This document shows positions 2,131-16,200 of a stretch of DNA of 20,937 bases, piece after piece (the stretch's first letter is position 1; each line of letters opens with the position of its first letter). The translations under genes were made by a program, and so were the position numbers. The notes under the pieces are model-generated. The model did not search any database and was not told the DNA's origin. It was given only the letters and a program-made list of their open reading frames with translations. The stretch is from positions 1 through 20,937 of the IMG/VR virus record IMGVR_UViG_3300002052_000571, one strand, 5' to 3'. The stretch is from a virus.

Positions 2131-2547
2131 TTACCACCCCGCTAACATAATTTTGCCTTCAGCTGCTATTGACGTCATGTTTTCTAGAACGTGCCCGATA
2201 ATACAGTATTCCGCTGTAGTTGTTGTTGCTCCAACAAACTTTCCGGTTGTTGTTGTTGACACCGTAACGGCTTGGTTCTTTTGTAATGCGTCGTCTGCGG
2301 CAATATCGTGGGTTGCCTCAACAACACCACGCCAGGCAACTAAAATTGTGTCACCATCAGCGGTGCATGTTTCAAGAGCAACACCATATGGCCCCATTTG
2401 GTCAAGTGAAGTATCAACTTTCTTGATGTGGCCGTCAGTTTGTCCATACTCTGCACAAACAATTTCGCCTTTTGTTATTGCTTCGCAAGCTGTTTCCTTA
2501 TCGACATACATTTCGAATGTCTTCATGATTTTTCCAGTGTCTGCCAT
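2131..2547 (-). CDS. Capsid decoration/cement protein (DUF2190-like)
   Basis: 138 aa, small and beta-rich, with many Thr and Gly residues. The order of elements matches head decoration proteins of the DUF2190 group: an early strand with KGEIVCAEYG, a middle GVALETCTADGDTILVAWRGVVEA segment, then ALQKNQAVTV and a final GKIMLAGW strand. Such proteins sit on the outside of the expanded capsid and stabilise it. Its ATG overlaps the stop of the scaffold-like gene (TAATG). It lies directly upstream of the capsid gene with one spacer base, so all three are co-translated. Confidence 0.75.
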   Translation of the reverse strand: MADTGKIMKTFEMYVDKETACEAITKGEIVCAEYGQTDGHIKKVDTSLDQMGPYGVALETCTADGDTILVAWRGVVEATHDIAADDALQKNQAVTVSTTTTGKFVGATTTTAEYCIIGHVLENMTSIAAEGKIMLAGW

Positions 2548-3074: not shown

Positions 3075-3126
3075 TATTTTTGCACCTCTGAAATATATTG
3101 TTCGCACCAACCCCTTTATAAAAGTT

Positions 3127-3139
3127 ATTATAAAAACTC
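3127..3139 (-). promoter_or_regulatory. Probable TATA box for the scaffold-decoration-capsid genes
   Basis: Minus strand reads TTTTTATAATAAC, about 55-60 bp before the ATG at 3074. Start of transcription near 3105 is expected, giving a leader of about 30 nt that includes the GAGGTG site. A copy of the 19-bp motif lies 60 bp further upstream (3197-3215). Confidence 0.45.
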
Positions 3140-3196
3140 ACTAATTTAATGGAAAGGTAAAATTATGTAGATATACATGATGTAAAAATACATAAT

Positions 3197-3215
3197 GTCG
3201 ACCGGGCCATAAGAC
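3197..3215 (+). repeat. 19-bp dispersed motif, copy 1
   Basis: GTCGACCGGGCCATAAGAC. Identical to the copy at 9498-9516. It lies in the 260-bp spacer between the homing endonuclease stop and the scaffold gene, upstream of a TATA box, and is inverted relative to copy 2 at 4489-4507. No other gene is evident in the spacer. Confidence 0.85.
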
Positions 3216-3335
3216 GGCGCAACCGGCAGTAAATTATTGAATTATATATAAGCTTTTCCATATTTTATGGCCGTTTGTATTTGTAAAGGGAAGTACGTAC
3301 CGAAAACAAGATATATATAAATAATTGGAACACAT

Positions 3336-4490
3336 TTAGGTTGTTAAAAATTTTTCAATTTTAATAATTACTTGATTAATATTCTCGAAGTCATGCCCCC
3401 ATAATATCAGTGTTTCGTACCCAAAAGTTCCAAAATACTTAACTCTGAAATCTTGTGTGCGGTGTTCTGCTATATTTTTTTCGGGGAAGTGCACTGGGCA
3501 ACTATGCCAGTAACATCCGAAAACCTCTATAATTTTTTTATGTGTTGGAAAAACAAAATCGGGGGTCAATTTCCCTACTCTCTTCTTTATATAAGGGTAA
3601 TTTTTAAATTGCATATATAGAATATCCGCAACTATCTGTTCAAGTCTTGACTCCGCTCGATATAATATATGTAAGTCATACCACATGTCTTTGCACTCAT
3701 CACAAAGTGATATATAATCGGAGGGTTGTTTAGCTTCCTTTTTGCAATATACAAATCGTGCTTTATTTTTATTACAAACTTCACAAATTGGCTTTAAATA
3801 AGTTTGGTCTTCTTGTAAAATTAATCCGTAACGAATTAGTGGCCCCAGTCGTCTGTATGATTTTTTTGGTTCATTTATTTCAGCAAAACAATTATCACAT
3901 AAATAAAAAATATTATCATCCCGTGGGTATTTTCCATGAAAGTATAATGATACATTTTCCTTTAAATGGCACTTCTGGCATCTTTTATTATGAATGTCAA
4001 TGTATTTATTATCATATGGCGGCAATAATTTTAACTTTTTCTTCTTACTAAAAATTTTATCAAGAGTCTCATTTATTTTATGTTGTTTTGCCGATTCTAT
4101 GATTTGGCATATTTCATCATAGTGTAATTTAGATTTCTTGCCAAATTTATTAAATATCCCCTTGATGCCTTCTTCGGTAAGATGACTACCTTTTTTAAAT
4201 TCATTCTTTAATGATTCAGCCCAGTCATCGTCTATTGAGATAACCTCAGAAAGAGTAATACAATTATCAATACCGATTATTTGTAAGGCGTTAAAATATT
4301 TTGTTTGTGACAAAGTCGAGTTAATACCGTGTTTAAATAATTCATTTTGGATTTCCTTTAAAAGTTCAATATCTCCATCAATTTCATAATAGGGAATTGG
4401 CCGCACGCCATACTTTACATCAGGGCGCCTACTGAACGTTACCCCAGAAAAGCCATCTTCGCGCAACGAAAGCGCCCAATGTTTCGTCAT
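3336..4490 (-). CDS. Composite homing endonuclease: LAGLIDADG-like, zinc fingers, Vsr-like nuclease
   Basis: 384 aa from the ATG at 4490; a TTG at 4517 would add nine residues. Near the N-terminus, WALSLREDGFSG resembles the LAGLIDADG helix and its acidic end. About residues 165-265 hold two zinc-binding Cys pairs sets (CQKCH...CDNC and CEVCN...CDEC). The C-terminus (about 300-384) matches Vsr/DUF559-type PD-(D/E)XK nucleases: TPDFVFP, then IIEVFGCYWHSCPVHF, then YETLILWGHDF, with likely catalytic D, E and H residues. EDxHD-type homing nucleases also use a Vsr-like core. It would cut DNA lacking the insertion and spread by repair. AT-rich codon use compared with its neighbours supports recent entry. 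Confidence 0.75.
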   Translation of the reverse strand: MTKHWALSLREDGFSGVTFSRRPDVKYGVRPIPYYEIDGDIELLKEIQNELFKHGINSTLSQTKYFNALQIIGIDNCITLSEVISIDDDWAESLKNEFKKGSHLTEEGIKGIFNKFGKKSKLHYDEICQIIESAKQHKINETLDKIFSKKKKLKLLPPYDNKYIDIHNKRCQKCHLKENVSLYFHGKYPRDDNIFYLCDNCFAEINEPKKSYRRLGPLIRYGLILQEDQTYLKPICEVCNKNKARFVYCKKEAKQPSDYISLCDECKDMWYDLHILYRAESRLEQIVADILYMQFKNYPYIKKRVGKLTPDFVFPTHKKIIEVFGCYWHSCPVHFPEKNIAEHRTQDFRVKYFGTFGYETLILWGHDFENINQVIIKIEKFLTT

Positions 4491-4507
4491 CTTATGCCCC
4501 GGTCGTC
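4489..4507 (-). repeat. 19-bp dispersed motif, copy 2 (inverted)
   Basis: Minus strand reads GACGACCGGGGCATAAGAT, ending at the endonuclease ATG (4490-4488) and overlapping the last base of the protease stop codon. Two or three bases differ from copy 1. Confidence 0.75.
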
Positions 4508-6078
4508 TATGCTCCAAAATAACAAACCTTACAGGCTGGATTCTGGCATACTGTTAATCTTTTATATGCCTTAACACCAGTAACCATTTTTCTTACTGGG
4601 TCCGCAAAAACTGTCGCATCAATTGAAAATCCTTGGTAATCCCCTTTTTTTATTTTCTCAATGGTTTCATAATCTTTTATAATGCCTTCTACTTTTACAT
4701 CATACCCGGAAAGTACTTTTTTAGTGACTGCCCCTGCAATTTTATCATTTTCGTGTTCAACATCAATAATCATACTATCAAAATCGTCCAAAGGTGATTT
4801 TTGTATAACCTCTGGGGACCAGAAAAAATTATTCCACACGCCGAATGATAATGCTGTGCCGGATATTTTTAATCCGTCAGGGGTTTCCTCCCATTTGATT
4901 TGTCCTGTAAGACAGATATCCATCGGAAATTCTTCCGATAATTTAACAGTCTCTTTTAGTGCATGCCAAATATTGGGTACTGTACTTGTGAATGACCATC
5001 TACCTTCTAATGCACTGCCAAAAAATTCAACTCTAAGTAAATGCGAACCATCTGGCTGGCCAGTGCTCTCATAAATAGCCACTTTACCTATGTCTAATCT
5101 CTCAATATGACAATCTTCAAGGTTAGACGGGTTGCCAGGATTACCCGGCTCTATTAATTCCTCTTTTTCACCCTTTTGCCAGAAATCCTCCGAGTATGGT
5201 TGTCGTTGCACTATTTTTATTTCCGTTTCTTTTAACGGATTATACTCAAGCACAAAATGCGAGGTAGTTTCCTCGTCATTGAGAAATAAGTCCCAGTGCT
5301 CATATTTTCCGTTTTCCCACCAGTGATGTATTAATGTATAATTCGCCATTGGGTGTTCTTCAGCAATTCGCTCGAATTGGTCGCTATCAGCAAGGGTGTC
5401 TATCTCAAGCTCCTCAGTGGTTATGCCTATATTAGGTTTCCCGTCAAGCATGTCCTCTAACTTGTAAAGGTCTTTTCCAATAGATTCACGAACTTTATAT
5501 CTACCAATTCCTGCACGTTTTGCGGCTGCTTCCAGTACACCTTTTGCTTTAGATATAAGGGATGATTTATTAGAGCCAGAACAAACCGGTTTTATTTGGT
5601 TTAATCTTGCTAGAGCATTTCGAAGGTGCGCTAAATCAACTTTCCCGTCCTTATCTTTATAAGGGAGATGTCTTGCGTTTTTATTATCGGTTTCTCCGCT
5701 TGTGTAACATCCTTCAATAACAGCAAAACTACTATTTGGCAAGTCGTTAATATATGCACTGGTCCAGGCTGCCAGTGATGCGTCTATTTCCTCAAGAATA
5801 CCAGTTTCTCTTGCCTCTATAACTAAATCGGACACATGGCTTACTTTCACAGTTTCGTCAAATAATTCAATATTTGTAATATCGCCGTCTTCCATCTTTA
5901 TTGCGGCAATTTTAACAGGAATTATATCACCAATTTTTAAAGGTTCTGCACCTGTATAATTATATTGTTTTGTTATAACTCCGCTGTTGCATTTCGGGCA
6001 TTCAAAGCCTATGAGGTAGCCCTTTTCATTTAACGCAATGACCTTTGCATTTGCATTTATATATTTTTCTTTATTCAT
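4507..6078 (-). CDS. Prohead maturation protease, XkdF-like, multidomain
   Basis: 523 aa from the ATG at 6078, preceded by AGGTGAAAAGA and overlapping the portal stop (ATGAATAA); the frame is open further upstream but inside the portal gene. Residues 1-75 include a Zn-like CPKCNSG. About 115-200 hold a phage-protease-associated segment (SFAVIEGCY, RHLPYKDKDGKVDLAHLRNALARL). About 235-420 resemble the LigD phosphoesterase-type insert seen in some phage proteases (LIHHWWENGKYEHWDLFL). The last 95 residues carry the XkdF/S78-like serine protease core: IDVEHEND with the probable catalytic His, VEGIIKD, and GDYQGFSIDATV with the probable nucleophile Ser. It would cleave scaffold and capsid precursors. 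Located after the portal gene as usual. Confidence 0.75.
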   Translation of the reverse strand: MNKEKYINANAKVIALNEKGYLIGFECPKCNSGVITKQYNYTGAEPLKIGDIIPVKIAAIKMEDGDITNIELFDETVKVSHVSDLVIEARETGILEEIDASLAAWTSAYINDLPNSSFAVIEGCYTSGETDNKNARHLPYKDKDGKVDLAHLRNALARLNQIKPVCSGSNKSSLISKAKGVLEAAAKRAGIGRYKVRESIGKDLYKLEDMLDGKPNIGITTEELEIDTLADSDQFERIAEEHPMANYTLIHHWWENGKYEHWDLFLNDEETTSHFVLEYNPLKETEIKIVQRQPYSEDFWQKGEKEELIEPGNPGNPSNLEDCHIERLDIGKVAIYESTGQPDGSHLLRVEFFGSALEGRWSFTSTVPNIWHALKETVKLSEEFPMDICLTGQIKWEETPDGLKISGTALSFGVWNNFFWSPEVIQKSPLDDFDSMIIDVEHENDKIAGAVTKKVLSGYDVKVEGIIKDYETIEKIKKGDYQGFSIDATVFADPVRKMVTGVKAYKRLTVCQNPACKVCYFGA

Positions 6079-10632: not shown

Positions 10633-10734
10633 ATGAATTTACAGCCGATACCAATAGATAATCGACATACGTATTGTAGTAAAGCGGTAGTCGGTGGTAG
10701 GTTCATTATTGAGACCACAGCCAGACGCTGTTAA
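10633..10734 (+). CDS. 33-codon ORF between the nuclease promoter and the tRNA array
   Basis: ATG at 10633, stop at 10732-10734; product begins MNLQPIPIDNRHTYC. TATA-like sequences lie at about 10597-10620, close enough for a leaderless or short-leader message. No family recognised and no Shine-Dalgarno, so it may be chance. Otherwise 10630-10760 holds nothing else I can support. Confidence 0.3.
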   Translation: MNLQPIPIDNRHTYCSKAVVGGRFIIETTARRC

Positions 10735-10760
10735 TCTCGCTTTTTTTGTCGGGCCCAAAA

Positions 10761-10770
10761 CTTATATATT
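10761..10770 (+). promoter_or_regulatory. TATA box of tRNA transcription unit 1
   Basis: CTTATATATT ends 21 bp before the first base of tRNA-Thr (10792), so transcription is expected to begin at or just before the tRNA. No second promoter is evident until 13961, so 23 tRNAs and seven small genes probably share one transcript. Confidence 0.65.
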
Positions 10771-10791: not shown

Positions 10792-10865
10792 GCCGACATA
10801 GCTCAACTTGGAAGAGCAGGGAGCCTGTAACTCTCAGGTTGCATGTTCGATTCATGCTGTCGGCT
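10792..10865 (+). tRNA. tRNA-Thr(TGT)
   Basis: Full cloverleaf: acceptor GCCGACA/TGTCGGC, D stem GCTC/GAGC, anticodon stem GGGAG/CTCTC, T loop TTCGATT. Discriminator T73 fits archaeal tRNA-Thr. The loop CCTGTAA has C at position 33 instead of the near-universal U. No CCA encoded. Confidence 0.9.
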
Positions 10866-10878
10866 TGGTGAAAGAGCC

Positions 10879-11184
10879 ATGAAAAAAGAATATAAAGAAG
10901 ACCTAGAAGATGTACAGGAAACATGTATAATAGACGCAGGTAACGGAAAAAAGATTGAGATAGATTTCTCACACTTCCCAAATGTTGCTGGCAAAAGAAG
11001 TAAATTTACAGGTTTACCAATTTGGGTAGGAAAAACAAAAGCACGTGCACTTGGCGTTGAAGCCGTAGCATTATGTTGGGTGAAGGAGCCTTATTCATAT
11101 GAGCGTGGCCGATACGTTACTGCAGGCAGAATCCTTAAAAAGTTAGGCTTGCCAACTAGTCTGGCAGAACAAGTGCGGAAGTAA
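10879..11184 (+). CDS. Unknown protein encoded between tRNA-Thr and tRNA-Gly
   Basis: 101 aa. The ATG at 10879 is 13 nt after the tRNA-Thr end, and the tiny leader carries GGTGA. The product has a basic N-terminus, a beta-rich middle (IIDAGNGKKIEIDFSHF) and a C-terminal part with GRYVTAGRILKKLGLPTSLAEQVRK, perhaps helical and nucleic-acid binding. No family recognised. The TAA stop is formed by T8-A9-A10 of the next tRNA, so gene and tRNA overlap by 10 nt. Cutting by RNase P would remove the last codons and the stop of this message. Confidence 0.75.
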   Translation: MKKEYKEDLEDVQETCIIDAGNGKKIEIDFSHFPNVAGKRSKFTGLPIWVGKTKARALGVEAVALCWVKEPYSYERGRYVTAGRILKKLGLPTSLAEQVRK

Positions 11185-11245
11185 TCTAACGGTAGGATTT
11201 CACATTGCCAGTGTGAATGTCTGGGTTCAACTCCCAGCTTTCGCA
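11175..11245 (+). tRNA. tRNA-Gly(GCC)
   Basis: Acceptor GCGGAAG/CTTTCGC, anticodon stem TCACA/TGTGA with loop TTGCCAG, T arm CTGGG/CCCAG, A73. Its first ten bases are also the last codons and stop of the preceding gene. One base separates it from the next tRNA. Confidence 0.92.
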
Positions 11246-11246
11246 T

Positions 11247-11415
11247 GCATCCATATCACAATCGGAAGTGAACTGGCCCTCCACGGGTGGAAGTCCCGCA
11301 GCCATGAGACGTGTTGATAGACTGCTCAGGTAAGACCAAGTTAGAGTGTCTATCCACTGGCTTGGAGCACTCCTGAGGAAAGTCAGGTATATGGGTTCGA
11401 TTCCCATTGGGTGCA
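11247..11415 (+). tRNA. tRNA-Gly(TCC) with 97-nt intron
   Basis: Acceptor GCATCCA/TGGGTGC, D stem TCAC/GTGA, anticodon stem CTGGC/GTCAG, A73. The intron 11284-11380 lies at the canonical 37/38 position with a good BHB: central helix CCTC/GAGG, 3-nt bulges CAC and AAA. Spliced loop CCTCCAA, again with C33. The intron has a further 7-bp stem GATAGAC/GTCTATC (11316-11322 with 11348-11354). Confidence 0.88.
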
Positions 11416-11416
11416 T

Positions 11417-11563
11417 ATGACTGTATTACCAGGACCTCAAGTTAAATGCCCATATTGCGGGGGAATATTCACCTACAATAAATGGGAACAGGCTGAAGCT
11501 GAATTAAAAAGAAAGATGGATTTGTTGAATAAAAAAATAGCCGCACTATCTGAACCAAAATAG
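11417..11563 (+). CDS. 48-residue protein with CPYC zinc-like motif and coiled coil
   Basis: The ATG lies one base after the end of tRNA-Gly(TCC), so 3'-end processing of that tRNA would create a leaderless mRNA. The product has one Cys pair (CPYCGG, residues 11-16) followed by a charged helix (about 22-45). This resembles a half zinc ribbon with a coiled-coil tail, possibly a dimer sharing a metal site. The TAG stop overlaps the first two bases of tRNA-Gln. No family recognised. Codon use is AT-rich like the other wedge genes. Confidence 0.7.
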   Translation: MTVLPGPQVKCPYCGGIFTYNKWEQAEAELKRKMDLLNKKIAALSEPK

Positions 11564-11633
11564 TCCCGTAGTGTAACGGTAACATACCTGGCTTTGAACC
11601 AGGCGACTAGCAGTTCGACCCTGCTCGGGACTG
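11562..11633 (+). tRNA. tRNA-Gln(TTG)
   Basis: Acceptor AGTCCCG/CGGGACT with the A1-T72 start usual in archaeal tRNA-Gln, anticodon stem CCTGG/CCAGG, loop CTTTGAA. Position 73 reads G. It directly abuts the next tRNA and overlaps the preceding stop codon by 2 nt. Confidence 0.9.
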
Positions 11634-11708
11634 TACGGTGTGGCGCGGAGTGGTAACGCATCAGGCTCATAACCTGAAGTTAGGGAGGCTCAAATCCTCC
11701 CACCGTAA
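11634..11708 (+). tRNA. tRNA-Met(CAT), probably elongator
   Basis: Acceptor TACGGTG/CACCGTA, anticodon stem TCAGG/CCTGA with loop CTCATAA, T stem GGAGG/CCTCC. The anticodon stem lacks the three G-C pairs of initiator tRNA, so an elongator is more likely. The CAT anticodon could also become Ile-type by modification. No spacer to the preceding tRNA. Confidence 0.85.
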
Positions 11709-11709
11709 T

Positions 11710-11780
11710 GTCTCTATGGTGTAATGGCAACATCTTGGACTGTCTATCCTTGGCTCTGGGTTCGACTCCCAGTGGAGACG
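11710..11780 (+). tRNA. tRNA-Asp(GTC)
   Basis: Acceptor GTCTCTA/TGGAGAC, T arm CTGGG/CCCAG, loop CTGTCTA, and G73 as expected for tRNA-Asp. The anticodon stem TTGGA/TCCTT has two adjacent T-T mismatches. Confidence 0.8.
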
Positions 11781-11783
11781 TAT

Positions 11784-11858
11784 GCTCCTGTGGACCAATT
11801 GGGTAACGTCACCTGGCTTTCAACCAGGAGGTTGCGCGTTCGAGTCGCGTCAGGAGTA
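11784..11858 (+). tRNA. tRNA-Glu(TTC)
   Basis: Acceptor GCTCCTG/CAGGAGT (G1-T72 wobble), anticodon stem CCTGG/CCAGG with loop CTTTCAA, T arm GCGCG/CGCGT, A73. Confidence 0.88.
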
Positions 11859-11860
11859 TT

Positions 11861-11933
11861 GGGCTTGTGGTGTAACGGAAACATACCATCCTTGCAAGAT
11901 GTGAGACTAAGGGTTCAAATCCCTTCTCGTCCA
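11861..11933 (+). tRNA. tRNA-Ala(TGC)
   Basis: Loop CTTGCAA on a CCATC/GATGT stem, T arm AAGGG/CCCTT, A73. The acceptor GGGCTTG/CTCGTCC keeps the G3-U70 pair that identifies tRNA-Ala but has mismatches at pairs 5 and 6. Confidence 0.82.
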
Positions 11934-11938
11934 CTTAA

Positions 11939-12011
11939 GGAACCATAGGATAATGGGAGTCCGCCATCCTGAAGAGGTGGATATGTGCCGGTTCGATTCC
12001 GGTTGGTTCCG
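11939..12011 (+). tRNA. tRNA-Phe(GAA)
   Basis: Acceptor GGAACCA/TGGTTCC, anticodon stem CCATC/GGTGG with loop CTGAAGA, T arm GCCGG/CCGGT. Position 73 reads G, unusual for Phe. Confidence 0.88.
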
Positions 12012-12013
12012 CT

Positions 12014-12085
12014 AGGCGGGTAGCACAATGGTAATGCACTGCGTTTACACCGCAACGACTGAGGGTTCAACTCCTTCTCCGCCTA
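12014..12085 (+). tRNA. tRNA-Val(TAC)
   Basis: Acceptor AGGCGGG/TCCGCCT, anticodon loop TTTACAC on a CTGCG/CGCAA stem (outer pair mismatched), T arm GAGGG/CCTTC, A73. Confidence 0.82.
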
Positions 12086-12087
12086 TA

Positions 12088-12238
12088 GCCTCTTTAATCA
12101 AGCGGCTAAGATACATGGCTGCAACAGCAAATACTCTTGGGCATACGCGCGTAGAAACAGTGTAAATATATGACAACCCACACTGGGAGAGTATATTGCA
12201 GATACCATGGTATGTAGGTTCGACTCCTGCAAGAGGCT
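12088..12238 (+). tRNA. tRNA-Cys(GCA) with 79-nt intron
   Basis: Acceptor GCCTCTT/AAGAGGC, anticodon stem CATGG/CCATG, T arm GTAGG/CCTGC, and T73 as in archaeal tRNA-Cys. The intron 12125-12203 sits at 37/38 with a textbook BHB: central helix CTGC/GCAG, 3-nt bulges AAC and ATA. Spliced loop CTGCAAA. Confidence 0.92.
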
Positions 12239-12240
12239 TT

Positions 12241-12420
12241 ATGGAACCAACTGAAATAATGACAAGGGACGGTAAACCGGCAGTATGTTTTGAAGCCGGT
12301 AATACTGTTGAAATTGACACCAATCGTCGAGTTGTAATTATCATAATTAAACAAATAAAATACATAATACCGTTCGAGAATATATCATACATTAAATTTG
12401 AATCAAATAAGAACCCGTAG
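12241..12420 (+). CDS. 59-residue beta-rich protein between tRNA-Cys and tRNA-Lys
   Basis: The ATG lies 2 nt after tRNA-Cys, predicting a leaderless mRNA after tRNA processing. The product alternates short strands (PAVCFEAGNTVEI, NRRVVIIIIKQIKYIIPFENISYIKFE) and resembles the core of a small PH-like or SH3-like barrel; this is a guess from the strand pattern. The TAG stop is T8-A9-G10 of the next tRNA, so the last ten bases are shared. Confidence 0.72.
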   Translation: MEPTEIMTRDGKPAVCFEAGNTVEIDTNRRVVIIIIKQIKYIIPFENISYIKFESNKNP

Positions 12421-12485
12421 CTCAGTTAGGCCAGAGCAACAAACTCTTAATTTGGAGGTCGCGAGTTCAAATCTCGTCGGGTTCA
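12411..12485 (+). tRNA. tRNA-Lys(CTT)
   Basis: Acceptor GAACCCG/CGGGTTC, D stem GCTC/GAGC, loop CTCTTAA, T arm GCGAG/CTCGT, A73. The anticodon stem ACAAA/TTTGG has one outer mismatch. Bases 8-10 (TAG) end the preceding gene. Confidence 0.88.
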
Positions 12486-12487
12486 TT

Positions 12488-12652
12488 ATGACAGATGAAT
12501 GGCTACATCATAGATGTAAATCATGCAAATGGAACGGTAATTGTGACTTACAAGATGCCCCACCACCAGGCATGCTTACCAAAAAGCAAATTGAGAATTC
12601 CGTTGCATGTTGTTCATGGGAACAACGCCGTTATAAGAAAAAGAACTCGTAG
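12488..12652 (+). CDS. 54-residue Cys-rich protein between two tRNA-Lys genes
   Basis: The ATG lies 2 nt after tRNA-Lys(CTT). The protein has five Cys (CKSCKWNGNC near residues 10-19 and CC near 41-42) and a basic tail (EQRRYKKKNS). The spacing would suit a small zinc or iron-sulfur site; the basic tail could bind nucleic acid. No family recognised. The TAG stop is T8-A9-G10 of the next tRNA. Confidence 0.72.
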   Translation: MTDEWLHHRCKSCKWNGNCDLQDAPPPGMLTKKQIENSVACCSWEQRRYKKKNS

Positions 12653-12717
12653 CGTAACTAGGACAGCGCAATGGCCTTTTAAGCCAAAGGTTGTGGGTTC
12701 AAATCCCATCGAGTTCA
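12643..12717 (+). tRNA. tRNA-Lys(TTT)
   Basis: Acceptor GAACTCG/CGAGTTC, loop CTTTTAA on an ATGGC/GCCAA stem (outer A-A mismatch), T arm GTGGG/CCCAT, A73. Overlaps the preceding gene by 10 nt. Confidence 0.9.
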
Positions 12718-12719
12718 TC

Positions 12720-12815
12720 GCGAGCGTGGCGCAACGGTAACGCAACAGGCTTATACCCTGTCAACGCACCCCTCTGATAAAAGGGAGATTGAAGGTTCGA
12801 CTCCTTCCGCTCGCA
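12720..12815 (+). tRNA. tRNA-Ile(TAT)-like with 29-nt variable region or intron
   Basis: Acceptor GCGAGCG/CGCTCGC, anticodon stem ACAGG/CCTGT with loop CTTATAC, T arm GAAGG/CCTTC, A73. Between anticodon and T stems lie 29 nt with an internal CCCT/AGGG hairpin. That is far more than a class I variable loop, so it is either a long variable arm or a non-canonical intron. A TAT anticodon reads AUA, which most archaea read with a modified CAT tRNA. Confidence 0.75.
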
Positions 12816-12817
12816 TT

Positions 12818-12889
12818 GCGACTGTGGCCCAGCGGAAAGGCGCCTGACTGATAAACAGGAGACGGAAGGTTCGATTCCTTCCGGTCGCA
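12818..12889 (+). tRNA. tRNA-Ile(GAT)
   Basis: Acceptor GCGACTG/CGGTCGC, loop CTGATAA on a CCTGA/ACAGG stem (inner A-A mismatch), T arm GAAGG/CCTTC, A73. Confidence 0.87.
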
Positions 12890-12891
12890 CT

Positions 12892-13056
12892 ATGAAAATA
12901 TGTGATATATGCAAAGGCGAAAAAGATATAAAACAAGTATCATTATACATCGACGAAACAAAGGAGTGTGCGGATGCATATGTTGATATCGACTTATGCG
13001 CTGCCTGCAGAGAAATACTTGCAGACCTACATAAAAAATTTATTATATCCGCATAA
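12892..13056 (+). CDS. 54-residue protein with two CxxC pairs
   Basis: The ATG lies 2 nt after tRNA-Ile(GAT), predicting a leaderless mRNA. CDIC (residues 4-7) and CAAC (36-39) are separated by a strand-rich middle, an arrangement typical of a treble-clef or ribbon zinc finger. A helical tail follows (REILADLHKKF). The stop is one base before tRNA-Tyr and does not overlap it, unlike most of the other wedge genes. Function unknown; nucleic-acid or protein binding is plausible. Confidence 0.72.
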   Translation: MKICDICKGEKDIKQVSLYIDETKECADAYVDIDLCAACREILADLHKKFIISA

Positions 13057-13057
13057 C

Positions 13058-13129
13058 CTAGGCGTAGCTCAATGGCAGAGCACTCGGCTGTAGACCGAGC
13101 GGTTGGGGGTTCAACTCCCTCAGCCTAGA
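13058..13129 (+). tRNA. tRNA-Tyr(GTA)
   Basis: C1-G72 and A73 as in archaeal tRNA-Tyr; acceptor CTAGGCG/AGCCTAG with the last pair mismatched, anticodon stem CTCGG/CCGAG, loop CTGTAGA, T arm GGGGG/CCCTC. Confidence 0.9.
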
Positions 13130-13131
13130 CT

Positions 13132-13338
13132 ATGGATTTAAAAAACAAAGGATTAGAATACCTGAAATACTTTACGAAAGAGCATACAAAACATCCTGTA
13201 GGCAGCACATTAAACTACTCATATGATATTACAATAATTAAAGAGCTTGAGAAAGGAACAAAAAATCATACTCAATCTATAATGTATATCCGATGTAAAG
13301 ACTGCTGCGGCGAAGGGAGGTGTGTTCTGGACTCGTAG
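13132..13338 (+). CDS. 68-residue protein with C-terminal Cys cluster
   Basis: The ATG lies 2 nt after tRNA-Tyr. The N-terminal half is basic and helical, followed by strands, and the C-terminus carries CKDCCGEGRC (about residues 55-64), which could bind a metal. No family recognised. The TAG stop is T8-A9-G10 of tRNA-Arg(GCG), giving a 10-nt overlap. Confidence 0.7.
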   Translation: MDLKNKGLEYLKYFTKEHTKHPVGSTLNYSYDITIIKELEKGTKNHTQSIMYIRCKDCCGEGRCVLDS

Positions 13339-13400
13339 ATAATAGGATAGTCTCTTTCCTTGCGAAGGAATGAGTATGGGTTCAAATCCCATCGGGTCCA
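13329..13400 (+). tRNA. tRNA-Arg(GCG)
   Basis: Acceptor GGACTCG/CGGGTCC, loop TTGCGAA on a TTTCC/GGAAT stem (outer mismatch), T arm ATGGG/CCCAT, A73. Bases 8-10 end the preceding gene. Confidence 0.88.
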
Positions 13401-13402
13401 TT

Positions 13403-13476
13403 GGGCGTATAACTCAATAGGACAGAGTATCTCGCTTCGAACGAGAAAGTTGTGGGTTCAAATCCTACTACGCTCA
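13403..13476 (+). tRNA. tRNA-Arg(TCG)
   Basis: Acceptor GGGCGTA/TACGCTC, D stem ACTC/GAGT, anticodon stem TCTCG/CGAGA with loop CTTCGAA, T arm GTGGG/CCTAC, A73. Confidence 0.92.
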
Positions 13477-13478
13477 CT

Positions 13479-13552
13479 GGGAATGTAGTTCTAATTGGCA
13501 GAATAACCGCCTCCAAAGCGGAAGGTTATGGGTTCAAGTCCTATCGTTCCCA
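13479..13552 (+). tRNA. tRNA-Trp(CCA)
   Basis: Acceptor GGGAATG/CGTTCCC, loop CTCCAAA on an ACCGC/GCGGA stem, T arm ATGGG/CCTAT, A73. No intron, although tRNA-Trp of many archaea has one. Confidence 0.88.
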
Positions 13553-13556
13553 CTAC

Positions 13557-13575
13557 GTCGACCGAGTCATAAGAT
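13557..13575 (+). repeat. 19-bp dispersed motif, copy 4
   Basis: GTCGACCGAGTCATAAGAT, three differences from copy 1. It fills most of the 26-nt gap between tRNA-Trp and tRNA-Pro, in an array where tRNA-tRNA gaps are otherwise 0-5 nt. Confidence 0.8.
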
Positions 13576-13578
13576 AAC

Positions 13579-13651
13579 GGGCTTTTGGTGTAACCTGGTA
13601 GCACCGGTGGTTTGGAACCATCAGGTGAAGGTTCAAATCCTTCTTAGCCCA
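13579..13651 (+). tRNA. tRNA-Pro(TGG)
   Basis: Anticodon stem GGTGG/CCATC with loop TTTGGAA, T arm GAAGG/CCTTC, A73. The acceptor GGGCTTT/TTAGCCC has two T-T mismatches at its inner end. Confidence 0.85.
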
Positions 13652-13653
13652 CT

Positions 13654-13727
13654 GCCCTTGTAGTGTAATCGGATACACAGCGGTGTTCTAAGCCGTTAAA
13701 ATGAGAGTTCGAGTCTCTCCAGGGGCG
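13654..13727 (+). tRNA. tRNA-Arg(TCT)
   Basis: Acceptor GCCCTTG/CAGGGGC, anticodon stem GCGGT/GCCGT with loop GTTCTAA, T arm GAGAG/CTCTC, G73. Confidence 0.87.
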
Positions 13728-13728
13728 T

Positions 13729-13821
13729 ATGTATCCAAATGATGTGGATAAATATGATAAACTATTATTCATTATACCAGTGATAATAGTTATATTATGG
13801 ATAATGGCGGAAGTAGTGTAA
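13729..13821 (+). CDS. 30-residue single-pass membrane peptide
   Basis: The ATG lies one base after tRNA-Arg(TCT). The peptide starts with a charged segment (MYPNDVDKYDK) and continues with one hydrophobic helix (LLFIIPVIIVILWIM). Its last five codons and stop overlap the 5' end of tRNA-His by 16 nt. The regular wedge position supports it despite its size. Role unknown. Confidence 0.6.
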   Translation: MYPNDVDKYDKLLFIIPVIIVILWIMAEVV

Positions 13822-13877
13822 AGGCAGCACAACAGGCTGTGACCTTGTTAGAGCGCGTTCAAATCCCGCCTTTCGCC
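13806..13877 (+). tRNA. tRNA-His(GTG)
   Basis: Includes an encoded G-1 opposite C73, the histidine identity pair. Acceptor GCGGAAG/CTTTCGC, anticodon stem ACAGG/CTTGT, loop CTGTGAC, T arm GCGCG/CCCGC with one mismatch. Confidence 0.9.
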
Positions 13878-13879
13878 CT

Positions 13880-13952
13880 GCCAGTGTAGCATAACGGAAA
13901 ATGCACCCGGCCGTTAACCGGGGTTATAGCTGTTCGACTCAGTTCTCTGGCG
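13880..13952 (+). tRNA. tRNA-Asn(GTT)
   Basis: D stem GCAT/ATGC, anticodon stem CCCGG/CCGGG, T arm AGCTG/CAGTT, G73. Acceptor GCCAGTG/CTCTGGC has one mismatch. The loop CCGTTAA has C33 instead of U33. Last tRNA of unit 1. Confidence 0.88.
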
Positions 13953-13960
13953 CTACCATA

Positions 13961-13972
13961 AATTATATATAA
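13961..13972 (+). promoter_or_regulatory. TATA box of tRNA transcription unit 2
   Basis: AATTATATATAA. Transcription should begin about 13993-13996, just before the ATG of the Leu/Ser-rich leader ORF at 14001. A second AT-rich element follows at 13981-13990. Confidence 0.6.
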
Positions 13973-14000
13973 GAAATCATAATATAATTTAACCTCTATC

Positions 14001-14057
14001 ATGGTGAAAATACTGAGTCTACTATCCAGTTCGAGTCTCTTGCGACTCCTCTTATAA
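14001..14057 (+). CDS. Leu/Ser-rich leader peptide before tRNA-Leu/Ser genes
   Basis: 18 codons, MVKILSLLSSSSLLRLLL, then TAA, ending 7 nt before tRNA-Leu. Eight Leu codons (five of the six kinds) and five Ser codons make up 13 of 18 residues. The ORF lies between a promoter and a unit that encodes only tRNA-Leu and two tRNA-Ser. This fits a leader peptide whose translation senses charged tRNA-Leu and tRNA-Ser and so controls the downstream genes; that is inference. The sequence contains GAGTC twice and GACTC once, permitting alternative hairpins. A tRNA remnant is the main alternative, since GTTCGAGTCTC resembles a T arm, but its flanks do not pair as a T stem. Confidence 0.5.
   Translation: MVKILSLLSSSSLLRLLL
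14015..14048 (+). promoter_or_regulatory. Competing hairpins within the leader ORF
   Basis: GACTC at 14044-14048 can pair with GAGTC at 14033-14037 (6-nt loop) or with GAGTC at 14015-14019. The two pairings exclude each other. A T-rich stretch follows (14049-14061), so the short-loop hairpin resembles an attenuator. Confidence 0.4.
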
Positions 14058-14064
14058 TTTTAAT

Positions 14065-14228
14065 GCCAGCGTGGTCGAGTGGACGAAGGCGCCAGACTTT
14101 TTTAAGGGCGATGCCTAGAAGAGGGTGAAGCCAAGAAGGGCGATGCTTAAAAGGGCGAAGCTCAAAAGTTCCGCTCGGGGAAACCTGGTACGTAGGACAC
14201 GTCGACGGTTCGAATCCGTCCGCTGGCA
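14065..14228 (+). tRNA. tRNA-Leu (class II), with intron made of tandem hairpins; anticodon unresolved
   Basis: Acceptor GCCAGCG/CGCTGGC, Leu-type D arm, T arm GACGG/CCGTC, a long variable arm (ACGT...ACGT) and A73 indicate a class II tRNA-Leu. It is the only Leu candidate in an array that covers every other amino acid. About 80-85 extra bases split the anticodon loop between CCAGA and CCTGG. No standard BHB gives an unambiguous anticodon: TAA would fit Leu but needs an unusual splice point, and other cuts give TTT or TGA. The insert contains four tandem mini-hairpins (14104-14166). Confidence 0.75.
14104..14166 (+). repeat. Four tandem ~15-nt hairpin repeats inside the tRNA-Leu insert
   Basis: Units contain GGGCGATGCCT, GGGTGAAGCC, GGGCGATGCTT and GGGCGAAGCTC, separated by A-rich joints. 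Each can fold as a 3-4 bp stem with a GAA or GAT triloop. Flanking ACTTTT (14096-14101) and AAAAGT (14164-14169) could close the set. Confidence 0.75.
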
Positions 14229-14230
14229 TT

Positions 14231-14315
14231 GTCGGAATGGCAGAGTGGTCTATTGCCGCTGGGTGCTAACCAGATGGATTAAAAAATCACGTAGGTTCAA
14301 ATCCTACTTCCGGCG
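14231..14315 (+). tRNA. tRNA-Ser(GCT)
   Basis: Class II: acceptor GTCGGAA/TTCCGGC, loop GTGCTAA on a CTGG/CCAG stem, long variable arm with GATT/AATC, T arm GTAGG/CCTAC, and G73 as in archaeal tRNA-Ser. Confidence 0.92.
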
Positions 14316-14317
14316 CT

Positions 14318-14401
14318 GGAGAGGTGCCAGAGCGGTAATGGGATAGTCTTGAAAACTATTGGTTGAAAAATATCATGCAGGTTCGAATCCTGCTCTCTCC
14401 G
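14318..14401 (+). tRNA. tRNA-Ser(TGA)
   Basis: Class II: acceptor GGAGAGG/TCTCTCC, anticodon stem ATAGT/ACTAT with loop CTTGAAA, long variable arm, T arm GCAGG/CCTGC, G73. Last tRNA; a convergent gene ends at the next base. Confidence 0.92.
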
Positions 14402-14686: not shown

Positions 14687-14762
14687 TTAATTGCCTCTTA
14701 AATTCATTACTTAAACCAAGATAATAAGCAGCATAATTATACAGCAACTGAGCATTATACAT
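14661..14762 (-). CDS. 33-residue ORF bridging the ParB-TGT gene and the Cys-cluster gene
   Basis: The ATG at 14762 overlaps the last codons of the ParB-TGT gene, and its stop lies 26 nt inside the next gene, so it links the two by overlaps. The peptide (starts MYNAQLLYNYAAYYLG) is Tyr-rich and amphipathic. No ribosome site is obvious, consistent with reinitiation. It may be chance, but the placement is typical of coupled viral genes. Confidence 0.4.
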   Translation of the reverse strand: MYNAQLLYNYAAYYLGLSNEFKRQLNGMESYNP

Positions 14763-16200
14763 CGCATTGATTTATACGCGTAAGAACATGGGGCGTCTGG
14801 TTGTCTGCCTGTGTAACTCCTTCACGGTATAACTTGACGAGAGTCCATGGGCTTCCAATACCGAAAGCATGAATTCCAATAGATGGATTAATTTCTCGTA
14901 CTCGTCTGCAGATAAACTGGTAACGCGATAATGTAGTGTTTCTCCGTTCGCCAGCTTGACTTCCAACTCCAATGATATGCTGTGAATTTTCAAAGATACC
15001 CATTTCACGAAACGCTTTAATACATTCGCCATATTCTTCGGCCTCGTGACCTTGCAGCACAAAACACTTTCGCGCCTTTGTCTTTAAATCTAACATCTGT
15101 TCAGCATTCTTAATAGTTATGGCTTGCGCCTCCTTAACAGTCATTTTACATTTTTCTAACAGGCCAATCTTGCACAACACATCCAAATGCGCCACAACAT
15201 CCGCATCAACCGCATTAGCAAACTCGACGAGCTCGGGCTGCCGACTAAACCAATCGGTATCACCCCGCGACATCGCAACAATCGCCGCACTATCAATCAT
15301 CAGGCTATCCATCAAGTCGCGCTTCTTAATCATGTCAACAACCATAGCCTGTTTGCCACCTCGATGCAAAACATGATAACCGGACACTAAAATATTGCGC
15401 TGCGGCAAAAGTTCCCACTGAATGCGAGTTGAAGCAGCAAAAGTGAAATAGAGGGTGAAATCGTCAGGAACGTTAAGTTTTAGCCGGGTCTTCGGCGCCA
15501 ATAATTCCCCATTATCGAGGTCACCCTCCAATTCGGGTAGCATAGCCAGGATAGCAGTCCGCCTGTTAAGTTGCATAGCAATTTTTGGCAAATCTGATTT
15601 AGCTATTTCACCACTAACAAGTAGTTTCGCTAATTTAACTCTTTCGGCTTGGTCTTTAATCCGCCGCAACCCAAGCACATCAGGCAACATCAACTCACCC
15701 CTCTTAACCGCCCCAAGTATGAACTCATCCTCCTTTAACACCGATATCGTATTATAAACAGTGGAACTCGACGTCTCAAAGGACCGCGCCACCTGGTCGG
15801 CAGAATAACCGTACCGGCTCATCAACCGCTCCCACGAAACGGCCAGCTCAAACAGGGTCAAATCCTCGCGCTTCTCGTTATAAAGCACCGCCAACTCGTA
15901 AGCCTGCCCCTCATCAATATCGTAAAAGGGCGCACAAGCTATCCGGTCCCAAGGAGGCGCAAAACTGCGCTCCTCGGCGACCAACAAAAACGCACAATGT
16001 GAACGGTGGCCGCTAATTATCTCGGCATAATCGGCCCTCGGAAACCAAATCGTAATCGCCCCCTTAAAGCCCTTCTCCCTAAAGGTATCAGCCAGCCCTT
16101 TCACTTTCTCCATATCCATAGAAAGCCGCGGTTGATTAGCCATAGGGTGGAGTTTGCGTGGGTCCATAAAAATAATATCTTTATTCAAATTTTGGTCCAA
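14755..16200 (-). CDS. ParB-like domain fused to TGT/DpdA-like transglycosylase
   Basis: 481 aa from a TTG at 16200; an ATG at 16167 would give 470 aa. Residues 8-110 are a ParB/Srx-type domain (MDPRKLHPMANQPR, then IISGHRSH), and 110-215 are its helical DNA-binding part (YSADQVARSFETSSSTVYNTISVLK). Residues 247-481 match the TGT barrel: MIDSAA for the first catalytic Asp (303), AHLDV (337-341), CFVLQGH (379-385), IIGVGS (409-414), HAFGIGSP (444-451), and AD at 465-466 where the nucleophile Asp is expected. In bacterial dpd clusters, DpdA (TGT-like) and DpdB (ParB-like) place deazaguanine in DNA; here both types are joined. Deazaguanine DNA modification is the best inference. tRNA G15 is an alternative target, but no PUA domain is present. 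Confidence 0.75.
   Translation of the reverse strand: MDQNLNKDIIFMDPRKLHPMANQPRLSMDMEKVKGLADTFREKGFKGAITIWFPRADYAEIISGHRSHCAFLLVAEERSFAPPWDRIACAPFYDIDEGQAYELAVLYNEKREDLTLFELAVSWERLMSRYGYSADQVARSFETSSSTVYNTISVLKEDEFILGAVKRGELMLPDVLGLRRIKDQAERVKLAKLLVSGEIAKSDLPKIAMQLNRRTAILAMLPELEGDLDNGELLAPKTRLKLNVPDDFTLYFTFAASTRIQWELLPQRNILVSGYHVLHRGGKQAMVVDMIKKRDLMDSLMIDSAAIVAMSRGDTDWFSRQPELVEFANAVDADVVAHLDVLCKIGLLEKCKMTVKEAQAITIKNAEQMLDLKTKARKCFVLQGHEAEEYGECIKAFREMGIFENSQHIIGVGSQAGERRNTTLSRYQFICRRVREINPSIGIHAFGIGSPWTLVKLYREGVTQADNQTPHVLTRINQCDV

Follow-up and report, generated by a model that had tools for sequence, protein, structure and literature searches.

In animal mitochondrial DNA (mtDNA), protein genes are bounded by tRNA genes with almost no spacer between them and with ends that overlap the neighbouring tRNAs, a layout known as tRNA punctuation. 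Here we describe a similar layout in a viral tRNA array. The stretch of DNA that we analysed, called the window throughout, is the complete IMG/VR viral contig IMGVR_UViG_3300002052_000571 of 20,937 bases, itself a genome fragment, and its tRNA array (10792-14401, plus strand) holds 26 tRNA genes representing all 20 amino acids, with seven small open reading frames (ORFs), W1 to W7, wedged between them. As in mtDNA, excision of the tRNAs would give messages with leaders of 0-2 nucleotides (nt). Unlike animal mtDNA, the window is viral, has tRNAs of archaeal type and carries small accessory ORFs where mtDNA has genes of respiration. It also encodes complete stop codons, several of them inside a tRNA, and the stump remaining after cutting is mostly not U or UA, so that polyadenylation could not complete a stop.

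Three other systems resemble parts of this layout. Halogranum tailed virus 1 (HGTV-1, Halomagnusviridae) encodes 36 tRNAs, which serve all 20 amino acids (PMC8651126), and ORFs are wedged in its array too, six of them starting 1-4 nt after a tRNA. It differs from the window in that virus and host are unrelated, fewer junctions obey the rule (6/16), TATA-like sites lie inside the array and the stops are found before, not within, the next tRNA. In the archaeal dicistrons of a tRNA and a small RNA (sRNA), such as Nanoarchaeum sRNA8 and Thermococcus sR44, a functional RNA lies immediately against the 3′ end of the tRNA, and RNase Z would generate the 5′ end of that RNA (PMC3491384, PMC4247193); however, what follows the tRNA is a C/D box guide rather than a message, and these are single pairs, not an operon. 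Among its many tRNAs, the cluster of bacteriophage T5 likewise has small ORFs and HNH endonuclease genes, some of which overlap the downstream tRNA, but its starts mostly lie 16-25 nt after the tRNA, leaving room for a Shine-Dalgarno site, and none of its 16 gaps has a start at 1-2 nt.

Protein genes inside archaeal tRNA clusters have been noted previously, without a tRNA-punctuated layout (PMC6333295). In the papers covered by our literature search, no description of the layout in archaeal viruses was found. The first-pass annotation of the window had stated that no such archaeal viral system was known, which holds for the papers found but not for the genomes, as HGTV-1 (NC_021328) has the same 5′ layout. 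The principle is thus that of mitochondrial tRNA punctuation, while its use for leaderless archaeal viral genes appears to be undescribed.

Protein genes abutting tRNA 3′ ends

tRNA genes were placed with ARAGORN, with introns allowed, and with Rfam, and the mature ends were taken from RF00005. The first unit of the array (10792..13952, about 3.2 kb) comprises 23 tRNA genes, from tRNA-Thr to tRNA-Asn, and seven junctions of 79-309 nt, each filled by a single ORF on the plus strand. We found that six of these seven ORFs start 1-2 nt after a tRNA 3′ end, as the first-pass annotation had noted. The leaders are T for W2 (11417..11563, 48 amino acids (aa)), TT for W3 (12241..12420, 59 aa), which follows the intron-containing tRNA-Cys, TT for W4 (12488..12652, 54 aa), CT for W5 (12892..13056, 54 aa), CT for W6 (13132..13338, 68 aa) and T for W7 (13729..13821, 30 aa). 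The seventh, W1 (10879..11184, 101 aa), is preceded by the 13-nt leader TGGTGAAAGAGCC (10866..10878), which contains the Shine-Dalgarno-like sequence GGTGA. The 1-2 nt leaders of W2-W7 have the length of most tRNA-tRNA spacers in the array (T, TT or CT), and the longest ORF-free junctions of the first unit measure 5 nt, apart from one occupied by a 26-nt repeat element.

Such leaders leave no room for a Shine-Dalgarno site before W2-W7, whereas GGTG or GAGG sites precede several of the virus's structural genes that lie inside operons, for example those for capsid, decoration protein and TerL. The trait typical of T5, a ribosome-binding leader of its own after each tRNA, is therefore absent at six of the seven ORFs. 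A scan for TATA boxes in and beside the array returned two TATA-like sites only, one before tRNA-Thr and the other before the Leu/Ser unit, and none before W2-W7. The main unit would start from the first of these (CTTATATA, 10761..10768, plus strand), about 24 nt before tRNA-Thr in a region kept in a close relative, and the second unit from the other (13962..13971, plus strand). None of the 26 tRNAs encodes its CCA end.

Many archaea make frequent use of leaderless mRNAs, and RNase Z cuts CCA-less tRNA precursors after the discriminator base. Bathyarchaeia are the likely host of this virus, because all 12 capsid relatives in cellular genomes, found with an alignment of 11 viral sequences against GTDB at one genome per species, belong to Candidatus Bathyarchaeota metagenome-assembled genomes (MAGs), at 37-43% identity.

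We consider it likely that the array is a polycistronic tRNA-mRNA operon in which tRNA 3′ processing yields leaderless mRNAs. Transcription from the promoter at about 10761 would give a single precursor reaching at least tRNA-Asn, in which host RNase Z would cut after the discriminator base of each tRNA and, because the array tRNAs encode no CCA, right at the mRNA start. Wherever an ORF follows the tRNA, this cut would leave an mRNA beginning with U, UU or CU and then AUG, to be translated by the leaderless route of archaea, while W1 would be the exception, translated via its Shine-Dalgarno leader. The single transcript, the RNase Z cut and the leaderless translation are all inferred from the sequence, and related processing has been reported in archaea: in Nanoarchaeum an sRNA that immediately follows a tRNA is inferred to owe its 5′ end to RNase Z (PMC3491384), in Thermococcus a tRNA-sRNA co-transcript is reported (PMC4247193), and in Methanopyrus the tRNA ends are trimmed before intron removal (PMC3695527).

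The encoded proteins are small, and CxxC pairs are found in four of the seven (CPYC in W2, CKSC in W4, two pairs in W5 and CKDC in W6), while W7 has, judged by eye, a single stretch resembling a membrane span. A search of the Pfam, PHROGs and PADLOC families gave nothing firm for any of them beyond a weak match of W5 to PHROG 16644. W1 had no match in phages and none in 251 Bathyarchaeia genomes, and its AlphaFold model was uninformative, with a predicted local distance difference test (pLDDT) score of 41. These proteins would be accessory gene products, encoded by cassettes that are exchangeable between tRNAs. Antisense ORFs running across tRNAs were also considered and rejected, as their frames are forced by the tRNA sequence.

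Non-randomness of starts and frames

To score the starts, we counted gaps of at least 60 nt after a tRNA in which an ATG at -1 to +4 opens an ORF of at least 29 aa. In the window this is the case for 6 of 9 gaps, compared with 0.20 expected (Poisson P = 7e-8).

For the frames we used the window together with its close relative, the 17-kb contig IMGVR_UViG_3300002052_000476 (hereafter L002). The ATG was fixed and the remainder shuffled with dinucleotides kept, and openness up to the next tRNA was scored. The chance of an open frame was 0.0003-0.08 per gap, and the ten gaps together gave a product of about 1e-20. When codon scores derived from the window virus's own genes were summed over 11 ORFs, the annotated frame reached -3 bits as opposed to -127 and -125 bits for the other forward frames; the scores of the reverse strand were left unused, as their background is unmatched.

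Recurrence in archaeal viruses and absence from controls

The same start test was applied to other arrays. In L002 it is satisfied by 2 of 6 gaps (0.13 expected) and in HGTV-1, a cultured haloarchaeal virus, by 6 of 16 (0.37 expected), with ORFs starting 1-4 nt after a tRNA. In HGTV-1 the ATGs next to tRNA-Arg(TCG), Arg(TCT), Val(GAC) and Ala(AGC) are at 46698, 46352, 42607 and 52079 of the record. One of the HGTV-1 ORFs encodes a recognisable HNH endonuclease, and here the annotation agrees with the start 1 nt after tRNA-Ala. For another HGTV-1 gene, with an annotated start at 42595, the frame is open from an ATG at 42607, 1 nt after tRNA-Val, and the annotation probably begins 12 nt too late; at 48009 there is an unannotated 32-aa ORF with a CxxC pair, 1 nt after tRNA-Ile. 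Plasmid matches to the HGTV-1 array were sought and none was found.

Bacterial arrays behave differently. T5 has no such start in 16 gaps (0.27 expected), and most of its annotated starts are 16-25 nt from the tRNA, the distance to be expected if a Shine-Dalgarno site has to fit in between. Mycobacterium phage Myrna has none in 12 gaps, and two Streptomyces phages have 1 in 10 gaps each, owing to one shared gene. This gene encodes a zinc-ribbon-like protein in pSt2308 (L032, 8071) and GiJojo (L037, 8071), with an ATG 1 nt after tRNA-His and upstream of the annotated start, and it is a possible actinophage case of a tRNA-abutting start. The chromosomal tRNAs of two Bathyarchaeia genomes have such a start at 0 of 40; in these 40 tRNAs (L040-L079) the CCA is mostly encoded, unlike in the viral tRNAs.

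Taken together, 14 of 31 gaps in the archaeal viruses (window, L002 and HGTV-1) carry a tRNA-abutting start, compared with 2 of 48 in the phages (T5, the two Streptomyces phages and Myrna; Fisher P = 1.5e-5) and 0 of 40 at the Bathyarchaeia host tRNAs (P = 1e-6). Regions of KVP40, HCTV-2, HF2, PaGz-1 and CcrColossus were unusable as array controls and were left out. The mitochondria-like 5′ punctuation proposed by the first-pass annotation is thereby borne out as a layout, which recurs in L002 and HGTV-1 and contrasts sharply with T5.

Stop codons inside the downstream tRNA

At their other end, all seven ORFs overlap the downstream tRNA or end 1 nt from it, and all have complete in-frame stops, so that the mitochondrial trait of incomplete stops finished by polyadenylation is absent. 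In four of them the stop codon coincides exactly with positions 8-10 of the next tRNA (T8-A9-R10), as previously noted: TAA at 11184 on tRNA-Gly(GCC) for W1, and TAG at 12420 on tRNA-Lys(CTT) for W3, at 12652 on tRNA-Lys(TTT) for W4 and at 13338 on tRNA-Arg(GCG) for W6. Of the two other overlaps described along with them, the 2 nt shared by W2 and tRNA-Gln is correct, while that of W7 with tRNA-His is 15 nt, or 16 with G-1 included. The stop of W5 falls 1 nt short of tRNA-Tyr.

We considered whether these stops do more than terminate translation. The first-pass annotation had regarded T8-A9-G10 as nearly universal and hence a ready-made stop, but TAA or TAG occupies positions 8-10 in just 15 of the 26 window tRNAs and 11 of the 23 L002 tRNAs. 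Across the 11 ORFs of window and L002, eight would lose their stop if the next tRNA were matured first by RNase P, and three stop before the downstream tRNA. As a consequence, full-length protein would need an RNA with the 3′ tRNA still attached; this would be a real constraint, although the case for a regulatory use of it is thin. More speculatively, protein synthesis and 5′ maturation of the downstream tRNA would be mutually exclusive on each RNA molecule.

A regulatory role, which would come in addition to the start-side punctuation, could take the form of ribosomes in the acceptor stem blocking RNase P, or of RNase P removing the stop, with a trade-off between tRNA and protein. It gains from the exact placement of the four stops and of a fifth, that of an HNH gene in L002, and from the eight stops that cleavage would remove. 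However, the in-phase use of T8-A9-R10 (5 of 7 eligible ORFs in window and L002, compared with 1/3 expected) reaches P = 0.045, the HGTV-1 ORFs end before the next tRNA, and overlap alone is not special, as T5 ORFs overlap downstream tRNAs too. We therefore regard this additional role as rather doubtful: of the earlier proposal of a designed stop in competition with RNase P, the coordinates are right and recur at the L002 HNH gene, while the enrichment in phase is marginal.

Apparent exchange of genes at tRNA junctions

L002 shares 84% identity with the window virus in TerL, and its array has the same place and order, with 23 tRNAs and a few absent. The promoter region upstream of the array is conserved between the two. 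L002 has three ORFs in its first unit, namely ORFa after tRNA-Asp (3998-4243, minus strand), ORFb after tRNA-Lys (3314-3460) and ORFc after tRNA-Ile (3111-3236), and CT leaders precede two of the three, ORFb and ORFc. A fourth, the HNH endonuclease of the second unit (2072-2386; PHROG E value 5.5e-22), has a TAG stop that forms positions 8-10 of tRNA-Leu, whose acceptor stem supplies the codons for the C-terminal residues M-H-A of the enzyme.

These ORFs are mostly unlike those of the window and sit at other junctions, yet follow the same rules. Homology links W1 with ORFa across the last 30 residues of each (local score 55, compared with 24.4, standard deviation 4.4, for shuffles, none of 2000 of which scored as high). 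The 13-nt leader of ORFa is almost identical to that of W1, with GGTGA kept, and this type of gene and leader lies at the Thr|Gly junction in the window and at the Asp|Glu junction in L002. A junction that is occupied in one virus is mostly empty (1-2 nt) or without its flanking tRNA in the other, a pattern of cassettes exchanged at tRNA junctions.

This pattern also suits an explanation by compaction and cassette turnover, according to which the ORFs were inserted or recombined precisely at junctions and are translated from uncut RNA or by internal entry, and do not owe their translation to tRNA processing. Junctions that are empty (1-2 nt) in one virus and filled (79-309 nt) in the other, a homologous gene at different junctions, and HNH genes, which are typical mobile genes, in the L002 and HGTV-1 arrays are what it would predict. 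However, T5 is equally interrupted by ORFs and HNH genes and mostly keeps 16-25 nt before its starts. Compaction has in addition no explanation for the Shine-Dalgarno-like site at both ORFs with a 13-nt leader, and under it the remaining ORFs would still be without an initiation signal. We accordingly judge it unlikely.

That most of the ORFs are unexpressed, being decayed remnants or fortuitous frames between tRNAs, is very improbable: W2-W7 have no homologs, family matches are weak or nil, products are short (30-68 aa) and some coding scores are weak, but the joint probability of the open frames, the frame-specific coding score, the CxxC motifs in 4 of 7, the excess of tRNA-abutting starts, the conservation of W1 in L002 and the HNH genes at like positions all argue for genes.

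Several observations weigh against production of leaderless mRNAs by tRNA 3′ processing. At W3 and W2 the acceptor stem contains GAGG or GGTG 3 nt ahead of the ATG, and this motif might serve as a weak Shine-Dalgarno site. W2-W7 are without detectable homologs in L002 or the other loci compared, so that the comparison with related viruses proposed by the first-pass annotation gave a divided answer, with the layout kept but six of seven ORFs unmatched in L002. The start test in L002 is a small sample when taken alone, a single close array-bearing genome was found, both it and the window are fragments, and the host link rests on capsid homology of 37-43%. The search of IMG/VR for relatives used patterns for TerL, capsid, ParB-DpdA, tRNA-Pro, tRNA-Asp, a micro-ORF and the W1 leader, and returned nothing beyond L002 and L014, a syntenic contig (TerL 71%) in which no tRNAs were seen.

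Introns, micro-ORF and neighbouring genes

The second unit of the array encodes tRNA-Leu(TAA), with an intron, tRNA-Ser(GCT) and tRNA-Ser(TGA) (14065..14401, plus strand; ARAGORN and Rfam). An Rfam scan found tRNAs to be the sole known RNAs above cut-off. Introns are present in four array tRNAs, Gly-TCC, Cys, Ile-TAT and Leu-TAA; those of tRNA-Gly(TCC) (11247-11415) and tRNA-Cys (12088-12238) are found in the window and not in L002, and those of Ile(TAT) and Leu in both. The tRNA-Gly(TCC) gene (11247..11415, plus strand) contains an intron of about 95 nt, and its stem CTGGC/GTCAG and loop CCTCCAA match those of the intronless tRNA-Gly(TCC) that occupies the corresponding position in the L002 array. 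ARAGORN called this gene Arg(CCG) at 11246-11416, a call that we dropped in favour of Gly(TCC) on the basis of synteny and of the stem and loop match.

Just behind the second TATA box, ahead of tRNA-Leu and the two tRNA-Ser, alignment with L002 revealed a Leu/Ser-rich micro-ORF of 18 codons or small RNA, MVKILSLLSSSSLLRLLL (14001..14057, plus strand), the L002 copy of which (2450-2506, minus strand) is MAKILSPLSSSSLLQLTL. A 5-bp hairpin in this region has two compensatory changes between the two viruses, and the conserved region may be a leader peptide or a small RNA. Upstream of the array promoter there is a strongly conserved non-coding stretch (window 10640-10760; L002 about 4650-4772, minus strand) that includes a hairpin (GAGA/TCTC and ACAGC/GCTGT) with T7 behind it.

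On its gene content the virus is an HK97-type tailed virus (Caudoviricetes), with genes for TerL, portal, HK97-type capsid and decoration proteins on the minus strand. Other genes encode a sulfotransferase and, adjoining the array (14755-16200, minus strand), a protein with a ParB helix-turn-helix and a DpdA/TGT-like domain (7-deazaguanine DNA modification). At 3336-4517 (minus strand) a Vsr-like nuclease domain is fused to several zinc-finger-like Cys clusters. The repeat GTCGACCGRGYCATAAGA is interspersed between genes at 3199, 9500 and 13559 in the window, one copy thus lying inside the tRNA array, at 5902 (minus strand) in L002, and at 2552 (minus strand), 8075 and 8715 (minus strand) in L014; the ParB-like protein may bind to it.

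Discussion

tRNA punctuation is a textbook feature of mitochondria, and we found a like logic in two unrelated groups of archaeal viruses, with bacterial and host controls that contrast sharply. Actinobacteria, too, commonly translate leaderless mRNAs. We tentatively propose that tRNA-punctuated leaderless genes may serve as a general expression strategy wherever the host of a virus translates such mRNAs, in archaea and perhaps in actinobacteria, with a cargo usually made of small zinc-ribbon-like proteins and HNH nucleases, and that in the Bathyarchaeia viruses the stops within tRNAs may also tie the amount of protein made to the maturation of the tRNA.

Viral tRNA arrays probably contain many short genes that annotation has overlooked or given a wrong start. 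Through this layout, archaeal viruses could produce leaderless mRNAs with neither promoter nor leader, a proposal that can be tested, and directly so in HGTV-1, which has a named host strain, Halogranum sp. SS5-1.

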